Shown: positions 8,852 through 11,438 of the stretch, in pieces | Numbering within the stretch: position 1 is the first letter of the stretch | How the letters are laid out: each line of letters opens with the position of its first letter | From: Treponema sp. | GTDB lineage: Bacteria; Spirochaetota; Spirochaetia; Treponematales; Breznakiellaceae | Direction: 5' to 3' | Length of the DNA: 42,781 nucleotides | NCBI GenBank assembly: GCA_009782955.1 | Contig: WRIB01000020.1 | Location: forward strand, 1 to 42,781 | Translations under genes and position numbers: made by a program | The notes under the pieces: model-generated | Told to the model about the DNA's origin: nothing | Seen by the model: only the letters and a program-made list of their open reading frames with translations | Database searches by the model: none

Positions 8852-9670
8852 TTATAGGCTTTTAGCGTACTTTTCATTGTTTAGCAGCATCTCAATCTTT
8901 CTGGCATTAATTGCTGCCTGAGCTTTGGCATGATTGTTAAAAAACAACTGGACAATTTTAGTATTTTGCAATAAATGCTTTATTGGTTCAACAAACATTT
9001 GCAATTCCGCATCACTGTACAAATAATCATAGCGGGTAACATTATCGCCCTTGTACCACATTTCTGCGTTCCTGCCGTGGAACCGTAAATAGGCAATATC
9101 GCCTGTAATTACATAGTCCAATTTCATGTGCCCGGTATAGCCAATGTCCTGCATCGTTAAAGGGCTGTCGGCAATACACCAGCCTACCTTCCTCTGACGC
9201 AGGGCATTGTACACCTGGTCGTTTTGCCATTTTGTATTTCTCATTTCAACCACTACCGGAATATCCGAAACCTCTTTTAAGAGGCTGTCCAGATAAATCC
9301 TTTCGTGTTTTTCATAACGGAAACTTTCCGGAAACTGGAACAAAACGCATAACAACAGATTTCTATAGAATAACGGCTCTATAGCTTTTTTAAATTCAAG
9401 TACAACCTGCCTGTATATTCGCTCGTCAATCGTATGCGTCAGCCCGGAAAATGCCTTCACGGTAAACTTAACCTTACCGCCCGACCTGTCAATCATATTG
9501 TGCATTTGCTGCGGACCAGGCATACGGTAATACGTTCCATTCAATTCAAGAGAGTTAAATTGAGAAGCATAGTATTCCAGGAATTTGGCCTTTGCCAGAT
9601 TTTCCGGATAAAAACCGCCTTTCCATTCATTGTAATCATAACCTGATGTACCAATCAGCAATTCACCCAT
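8852..9670 (-). CDS. DUF72 (YecE-like) family protein
   Basis: LLIGTSGYDYNEWKGGFYPENL...FNSLELNGTYYRMP; conserved DUF72 architecture. Confidence 0.88.
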   Translation of the reverse strand: MGELLIGTSGYDYNEWKGGFYPENLAKAKFLEYYASQFNSLELNGTYYRMPGPQQMHNMIDRSGGKVKFTVKAFSGLTHTIDERIYRQVVLEFKKAIEPLFYRNLLLCVLFQFPESFRYEKHERIYLDSLLKEVSDIPVVVEMRNTKWQNDQVYNALRQRKVGWCIADSPLTMQDIGYTGHMKLDYVITGDIAYLRFHGRNAEMWYKGDNVTRYDYLYSDAELQMFVEPIKHLLQNTKIVQLFFNNHAKAQAAINARKIEMLLNNEKYAKSL

Positions 9671-9672
9671 TA

Positions 9673-10968
9673 CTAATACACCCTCGGGATTTCCCTTATA
9701 TTAGTCGTATACTTCGGCGACAAACATCCCCGTTTCATTCTCCATGCTTCATTATTGTTTGCTCTTTGTTCTTTATTCATTTTACTTAATGCGCAGCCAA
9801 GTTTAATTGTACCACTGCCGTACCTGTCATTTATAGCATCAAAGGCCTGCATTAACGGTTCTTTTATTATTTTCCGGTTCAGACCAATATTAAATAAATC
9901 AAGCTGCGAATTCTTGTCAAACTCCAATCCGGTTAATCCAACCATAACCTTTCTGTATTTATAGTTCGGACGGAAAATCCGTTTTAAAAGTTCATTGGCG
10001 GCTGCCTGTATTTCCGGAAGATAGGCACTCAAATAGGGGAGTTCTGCGCTGCATTGGTTAAAGTACTGTTCCCCTTGCGCATAGGCATTGGTCATTAAAT
10101 AAACGCTTACAAACCGGCATGATAAATTCTCCGCCCTTATGCGTTTAACAGCCTCTTGCGTGTACTCCGCCAATGCCGCAATTATATTGTTTAATTCATA
10201 TACAGGTTTGTGAAAACTCTTTGATACCATTACCACTTGCCGGGGCGCTTCCTCTATCCGGTCTATTGCTTTTATTCCGTTCAATTCCTGGACTATCCTC
10301 ATCCCGGTAATCGTCATGTGCTTTTTTGCCTTTTCAAGCGGATAATGCTTAAGGGCAAGGGCGGTTGTAACCCCCTGTTTTTTAAGAAATGCTGCTTTTG
10401 ACCATCCTATGCCCCAAATATCATCGACCGGGTATTTTCCCAGTTCTTCGTCCTGATCGACCCTTGCCCAGTCGTAAACGCCCTCACCGGCGGCGCTTCC
10501 GCCCTGCCTTTTCGCCAGCTTGTTACACATCTTGGCCAGAACTTTGTTGGGAGCAATCCCAATCGACACCGGTATTCCGGTTTCTCTTGTTACTGCCGTT
10601 TTTACCTCATGTCCCAATTCCGAATAATCGGTATTATTCCAGTCCGGAAAGAAAAGGAAGCTTTCGTCAATGGAATAAACTTCCACATCGGGAGCAAACC
10701 TGTTATAAATCAAATTCATCCGTGCCGACATATCTGCATAGAGGGTATAGTTAGAAGAAAAAACAGAAACGCCGCTTTTTTCCAGCTTTTCTTTTACCTC
10801 GAAAAACACATCGCCCCGCTTAAAGCCCAGGGCTTTACATTCGGCATTCAGGGCAATAATAATACCGTCATTATTCGTTAGTACCGCAATCGGGCTATGT
10901 ACCAAATCAGGCCGGAAAACCCGTTCACACGCCGCATAAAATGAGTTACCGTCAATGTGAAATATCAT
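9673..10968 (-). CDS. umuC: Y-family DNA polymerase V catalytic subunit UmuC
   Basis: IDGNSFYAACERVFRPDL, SNYTLYADMSARM, VYSIDESFL motifs. Confidence 0.92.
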   Translation of the reverse strand: MIFHIDGNSFYAACERVFRPDLVHSPIAVLTNNDGIIIALNAECKALGFKRGDVFFEVKEKLEKSGVSVFSSNYTLYADMSARMNLIYNRFAPDVEVYSIDESFLFFPDWNNTDYSELGHEVKTAVTRETGIPVSIGIAPNKVLAKMCNKLAKRQGGSAAGEGVYDWARVDQDEELGKYPVDDIWGIGWSKAAFLKKQGVTTALALKHYPLEKAKKHMTITGMRIVQELNGIKAIDRIEEAPRQVVMVSKSFHKPVYELNNIIAALAEYTQEAVKRIRAENLSCRFVSVYLMTNAYAQGEQYFNQCSAELPYLSAYLPEIQAAANELLKRIFRPNYKYRKVMVGLTGLEFDKNSQLDLFNIGLNRKIIKEPLMQAFDAINDRYGSGTIKLGCALSKMNKEQRANNNEAWRMKRGCLSPKYTTNIREIPRVY

Positions 10969-11335
10969 AATTGTACATTTTGATAGAGGCCGTTACCGTC
11001 CCGACAATCGCCGTTTCATCAACTATCGGTTTAATAGTGTTAATCCCATTGGTAAATACCGCCGTCCCTCTGATTTTTTTCATAAGGCGGCATAAAAACC
11101 GTCCTTCATGCCTAATCACGGCAAATTGATTAAAACCAGGAGTCCTTGAGCGGTCAACAACCAGCAATGTCCCCCTCGGCAAGCCCATATCACTCATATC
11201 TCCGCTTTCCAGCCGAAAAAAGTACGTTGCCGGAGGGTTTTTTACCAGCAGTTCATTAAGGTCAATATTCGGGTCCTCATATCCCAGCGCCGGACTTGCA
11301 AACCCGGAAGCTTTTCTCCCTGCCATATTAGTCAT
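10952..11335 (-). CDS. umuD: UmuD-like protein without a recognisable Ser/Lys dyad
   Basis: SGFASPALGYEDPNIDLNELLVKNPPATYFFRLESGDMSDMGLPRGTLLVVD aligns with UmuD; 17-nt overlap with umuC. Start assigned to the ATG at 11335, next to the predicted TSS. Confidence 0.75.
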   Translation of the reverse strand: MTNMAGRKASGFASPALGYEDPNIDLNELLVKNPPATYFFRLESGDMSDMGLPRGTLLVVDRSRTPGFNQFAVIRHEGRFLCRLMKKIRGTAVFTNGINTIKPIVDETAIVGTVTASIKMYNYDISH

Positions 11336-11342
11336 TATATCA

Positions 11343-11370
11343 ATAATACTATACAAATATATAGTGTCAA
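11343..11370 (-). promoter_or_regulatory. umuD promoter with palindromic spacer (candidate SOS-type operator)
   Basis: On the minus strand: TTGACA (11370-11365), 16-nt spacer, TATTAT (11348-11343). Perfect palindrome ACTATA-N6-TATAGT fills the spacer (11348-11365). Confidence 0.65.
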
Positions 11371-11438
11371 GAGAAATTTCGGCACATTTTTTGGCAAAAT
11401 CCTTACGCATTCCTCATATAAAAAAATTAAAAAAACTC

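Follow-up and report, generated by a model that had tools for sequence, protein, structure and literature searches.

We report that a gene within a 42,781-nucleotide stretch of Treponema sp. DNA (contig WRIB01000020.1; the whole stretch is called the window here) probably encodes a constitutive UmuD′ in a LexA-type-repressed polymerase V (Pol V) operon, in which RecA-triggered cleavage has been lost and RecA activation retained; we put the probability of this reading at roughly 0.8. Teaching presents UmuD cleavage as a key delay, one that holds mutagenic Pol V back until other repair has failed. A protein with no Ser-Lys dyad and almost no N-terminal arm should be UmuD′ from birth, with that delay removed and with transcriptional control and, judging by the UmuC motifs, RecA activation left. 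A search of the openly accessible literature found no report of a dyad-less spirochaetal UmuD, or of a UmuD′ that is encoded in the operon across a clade and has lost the dyad. A natural clade that lacks the cleavage step and keeps a pre-processed subunit under selection would offer a direct way to ask what the step is for, and the clade has cultured members in Breznakiella homolactica and Treponema bryantii. Database entries for such proteins may have been named "autoproteolytic subunit" by homology, though the proteins are unable to cut themselves.

A UmuD homologue with almost no arm and no catalytic dyad

The umuD′-like gene lies on the reverse strand (11335..10952), from an ATG at 11335 to a stop codon ending at 10952, and encodes 127 amino acids; an alternative ATG at 11326 would yield 124. 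Profile searches against the S24 and UmuD families, suggested in the initial annotation, matched the Pfam model Peptidase_S24 at 34.6 bits (cut-off 23.3) and gave 71.6 bits with the NCBIfam UmuD model NF007621, below its 110-bit cut-off. With 41.1 bits against a cut-off of 120 for the NCBIfam model NF051876, the protein is not assignable to HumD itself. Among solved structures, E. coli UmuD′ and UmuD come closest (phmmer against the PDB: 1umu, 3.4e-12; 8gmt, 3.5e-12), and the phmmer alignment to them is gap-free across the relevant region. The 127 residues comprise the S24 domain alone, and an N-terminal DNA-binding domain of the LexA/UmuDAb type is absent.

The N-terminal motif of UmuD′ is found near the beginning of the protein, reading SGFASPA (11288..11308, reverse strand) where E. 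coli has CGFPSPA. Gly11 is the equivalent of Gly25, and the site before it reads Ser10-Gly11; the full arm and the Cys/Ala24-Gly25 cleavage site are absent. About 9-10 residues precede Gly11 if translation begins at 11335 and 6-7 if it begins at 11326, in agreement with the minimal arm of about 10 residues proposed earlier. Leaving out the initiating Met, the two starts give nine and six residues ahead of the Gly25 equivalent, a range of 6-9. The position of the catalytic Ser60 is occupied by Asp46 (codon GAT, 11200-11198, reverse strand) and that of the catalytic Lys97 by Arg83 (codon CGC, 11089-11087, reverse strand). Both substitutions had been read from the sequence at the outset, and both were recovered in the gap-free phmmer alignment and in a MAFFT alignment with E. 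coli UmuD.

The window protein resembles E. coli UmuD/UmuD′ (NF007621; 1umu, 1ay9, 8gmt) in its fold, in the GF(P/A)SPA N-terminus seen after processing, in its operon with umuC and in a promoter with a candidate SOS-type box. It differs in that E. coli UmuD carries a 24-residue arm, the Cys24-Gly25 site and the Ser60-Lys97 dyad, whereas the window protein has an arm of 6-9 residues and an Asp-Arg pair. An AlphaFold2 model computed with 35 clade sequences (pLDDT 86.5, pTM 0.73) finds its closest PDB structure in UmuD′ (1umu, 1ay9; E 1.5e-7, TM-score 0.80 on the target).

The dyad is missing throughout a clade of spirochaetes

Relatives of the gene are present in 53 of the 394 sampled genomes of the window's order. 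For comparison we assembled 85 spirochaetal loci from named GTDB genomes, viral contigs and the window; the named members include termite-gut-type Treponema MAGs, rumen Treponema, Breznakiella homolactica and Treponema bryantii. The Ser-Lys dyad is missing in 85/85 of these relatives from Treponema/Breznakiella-type spirochaetes, so the survey of treponemal homologues proposed in the initial annotation shows that the window gene is not a one-off. The original description of the protein as "born as UmuD′", bypassing self-cleavage, is strongly supported and, as far as sequences can tell, holds across the whole clade. Position 60 holds Arg (33 loci), His (11), Asn (11), Asp (10), Gln (7), Ser (4-5), Glu (4) or other residues, and position 97 holds Gly (54), Arg (24), Ser (4) or others. 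The equivalents of Gly25, Phe26, Ser28, Pro29, Asp75 and Gly129 are invariant in the 85 sequences, with either Pro or Ala at position 27, and the GF(P/A)SPA motif of processed UmuD′ is kept.

Canonical UmuD exists elsewhere in the phylum. The UmuD model scored over its cut-off in 40 of 393 genomes across Spirochaetota, all 40 of them outside the window's order; 37 of these proteins have Ser and Lys and three have Ser and Arg. Nearly all have an arm of 20-35 residues, typically with an Ala-Gly site, and the dyad is present in each of the 35 that were aligned. Judged from these alignments, the dyad loss is beyond chance (85/85 relatives without it versus 35/35 aligned canonical spirochaetal UmuDs with it). 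In a UmuC tree (quick search, branch support from SH-aLRT only), the dyad-less proteins of the window's order form one side of a branch with an SH-aLRT of 100. Separate dyad losses occur elsewhere, as Ala/Arg in L131 and Ile/Arg in L137. Arm loss can come before dyad loss, because phage HumD and N15 gp26, together with L130 and L123 (arm short, dyad intact), show a short or missing arm alongside dyad residues, although L133, L134 and L136 combine Lys97 to Arg with a long arm.

The lost dyad could also leave the protein behaving as a non-cleavable full-length UmuD, with UmuC kept inactive or in a checkpoint role, and not like UmuD′. In E. coli, UmuC leaves the membrane only after UmuD cleavage, and UmuD(K97A) holds it there (PMC4552617); moreover UmuD 18, whose arm is of similar length to that of the window protein, is weakly mutable (PMC5342242). 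We consider this reading improbable, since most of the arm, which in UmuD bears signals for Lon and ClpX (PMC5342242), is missing from the window protein, most of the dyad-less clade starts merely 3-5 codons ahead of Gly25 (3 codons in 59 of 86 table rows), and the conformation of UmuD 18 is itself UmuD′-like (PMC5342242). By analogy with UmuD 18, full activity of the window protein is nevertheless not guaranteed, as it keeps 6-9 arm residues.

It is quite improbable that the gene is decaying, its dyad lost since umuD was no longer needed. In its favour, the genome has another umuD-umuC copy, reduced by internal deletion to a remnant, and relatives carry the operon patchily. Against it stand the invariant residues listed above, an intact operon and UmuC active site, and the low dN/dS of dyad-less umuD′ genes, a sign of purifying selection (0.02-0.15 for most close pairs, and 0.17-0.40 for the three in which synonymous changes were nearly absent).

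The remnant copy (L083, G000:C17:43719-43919) has umuD codon ~55 joined to umuC codon 31, followed by a stop. It keeps the promoter box (CTACACTATTGTATAG), and its Ser60 site likewise reads SGDM.

A misjudged start codon, with the true protein beginning at the upstream ATG at 11410 and carrying an arm, is very improbable. The reading frame is open as far as that ATG, which would give 152 amino acids, but it sits 5′ of the predicted -35 (11370-11365) and -10 (11348-11343) elements and therefore cannot be on the predicted transcript. Moreover, 61 of the 85 loci offer no ATG, GTG or TTG able to give an arm of at least 18 residues, and without the dyad self-cleavage could not take off an arm anyway. 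We rejected the long protein from 11410, which the initial annotation had named as evidence that would count against its proposal, on the grounds of promoter position and the relatives. Continued processing of the window protein, by way of another nucleophile or base or by a separate protease, is likewise very improbable: when an alternative Ser-Lys pair, the other such evidence named, was sought in the alignment columns of the 85 relatives, position 58 was often Ser or Thr but had no conserved Lys partner near position 97, position 60 held ten residue types, and with the arm nearly gone there is little to cut off.

An intact UmuC in a probable three-gene operon

The umuC gene, encoding the 431-residue catalytic subunit of Pol V (9673..10968, reverse strand), overlaps umuD′ by 17 nt. 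A DUF72 gene (8852..9670, reverse strand), probably the third of the operon, follows umuC after 2 nt and is conserved in that place in many relatives, lying ~5-30 nt after umuC in L187, L188, L192, L193, L196-L198, L200, L256, L264 and L266-L269. This arrangement suggests a umuD′-umuC-DUF72 operon. The DUF72 protein Tm1631 has been predicted to be endonuclease IV-like (PMC3828134).

The catalytic residues D6, D101 and E102 are intact in the window UmuC; across the sequences compared, Asp101 and Glu102 are present in 112/112 and Asp6 in 111, with one gap. Alignment with E. coli UmuC reveals that the QLDLF clamp motif, the motif resembling the RecA-binding one (LMQAFDAINDRYGSGTIKLG) and the UmuD′-binding tail at the C-terminus (MKRGCLSPKYTT) are all kept, and UmuC also matches DUF4113. 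Because UmuC keeps both the RecA-like motif and this tail, the finished polymerase is probably still activated by RecA. Published modelling puts the N-terminal end of UmuD′ within UmuC, close to the UmuC active site (PMC11791011); this placement would account for the retention of GF(P/A)SPA despite the loss of the protease.

A candidate LexA-type box in the umuD′ promoter

Ahead of umuD′ lies a predicted promoter, TTGACA-N16-TATTAT (11343..11370, reverse strand), which agrees with the sigma-70 consensus in all but one of its 12 positions. Its 16-bp spacer is exactly an SOS/LexA-type palindrome, CTATATATTTGTATAG (11349..11364, reverse strand), with one mismatch to CTATACNNNNGTATAG. Of 11 umuD′ promoters from the window's family and close termite-type viral loci, 10 contain the latter with no more than one mismatch, versus 0.09% of shuffles. 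A search of 2.9 million viral contigs for the exact string TTGACACTATACNNNNGTATAGTA returned exactly the three contigs from which the UmuD′ relatives L266-L268 had come. The sole perfect box in the window's own genome stands 17 nt ahead of a TIGR03916 DNA-repair radical SAM gene; boxes also precede TIGR03915 genes in two relatives and lexA in one relative from a related family. In the LexA of this genome, Ser, Lys and Ala-Gly are all preserved, and recA is present.

No clear copy of the box was found at the genome's own lexA or recA, and the umuD′ promoters of rumen Treponema mostly lack it. At up to two mismatches genome-wide, the box was not enriched over a reversed control, and the analysis was therefore restricted to exact or one-mismatch promoter sites. 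The palindrome is likely a LexA/SOS box, and LexA the likely repressor of the umuD′ promoter, although the genome's own lexA and recA and most rumen Treponema umuD′ genes are without the box. The proposal that Pol V is controlled by transcription alone holds in part: the LexA-type box makes transcriptional control likely, but "alone" is too strong, given the RecA-like motif in UmuC.

Other palindromes were seen near related promoters. In rumen-type Treponema (L050-L070), AT-rich palindromes whose arms change together lie just 5′ of TTGACA in umuD′ promoters; examples read by eye are TCACTATTTAGTGA, TAACTAAACGGTTA and TACTCATTTGAGTA, possibly operators or terminators. Several spirochaetal loci with canonical umuD (L101, L103, L109-L111, L114, L116 and L142) share the element CTAAACAWWTGTTGAC, which seems to overlap the -35 box and is possibly a second type of LexA box.

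Proposed mechanism and comparison with known systems

These observations are consistent with a route in which an ancestor of the spirochaete clade lost the inhibitory N-terminal arm of UmuD together with the Ser-Lys protease dyad, and in which the fold and the GF(P/A)SPA N-terminus docking into UmuC would have been retained. DNA damage would then relieve LexA-type repression of the umuD′-umuC(-DUF72) operon, and UmuD′ would bind UmuC once made, with no wait for RecA-triggered self-cleavage; the assembled polymerase would still require RecA for activation. We infer the identity of the repressor, the assembly of UmuD′2C, its immediate activity and the retained activation by RecA from the genes and motifs described. 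More tentatively, one loss in an ancestor may have left the whole clade running Pol V with the checkpoint of UmuD self-cleavage permanently gone, its patchiness deriving in part from phage-like transfer of an SOS box-umuD′-umuC-DUF72 cassette, a combined scenario that is possible but doubtful.

In two IMG/VR contigs (L272 and L273), a box-umuD′-umuC-DUF72 cassette adjoins a phage head and packaging module comprising terminase, portal, protease and major head protein. A phage-borne cassette may account for the patchy distribution of umuD′; no DNA-level phage matches to the window operon were found.

The E. coli Pol V mutasome (UmuD′2C-RecA) shares with the window system the active-site, clamp, RecA-like and UmuD′-binding motifs of UmuC; in the window, unlike in E. 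coli, self-cleavage is not possible and DUF72 is the third gene of the operon. The small accessory subunit proposed for a UmuC-like polymerase in B. subtilis, YqjW-YqjX (YolD), likewise falls outside the S24 self-cleavage scheme (PMC6511836), but YqjX/YolD belongs to a separate protein family, whereas the window protein is genuinely homologous to UmuD. Phage P1 HumD and N15 gp26 (NF051876) are closer in form, encoded directly at UmuD′ length with the start M-GFPSPA, and P1 humD has a LexA site annotated upstream. HumD nevertheless keeps Ser and Lys, and N15 gp26 has Thr and Lys, whereas the window protein lacks both dyad residues; nor is umuC annotated alongside P1 humD, whereas the window umuC belongs to the operon and the trait extends across the clade. 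P1 HumD is thus a known precedent for the missing arm and not for the lost dyad. A HumD-like protein that also starts M-GFPSPA and keeps Ser and Lys is encoded in a Burkholderiales MAG (L249, isolate Ast373_bin27).
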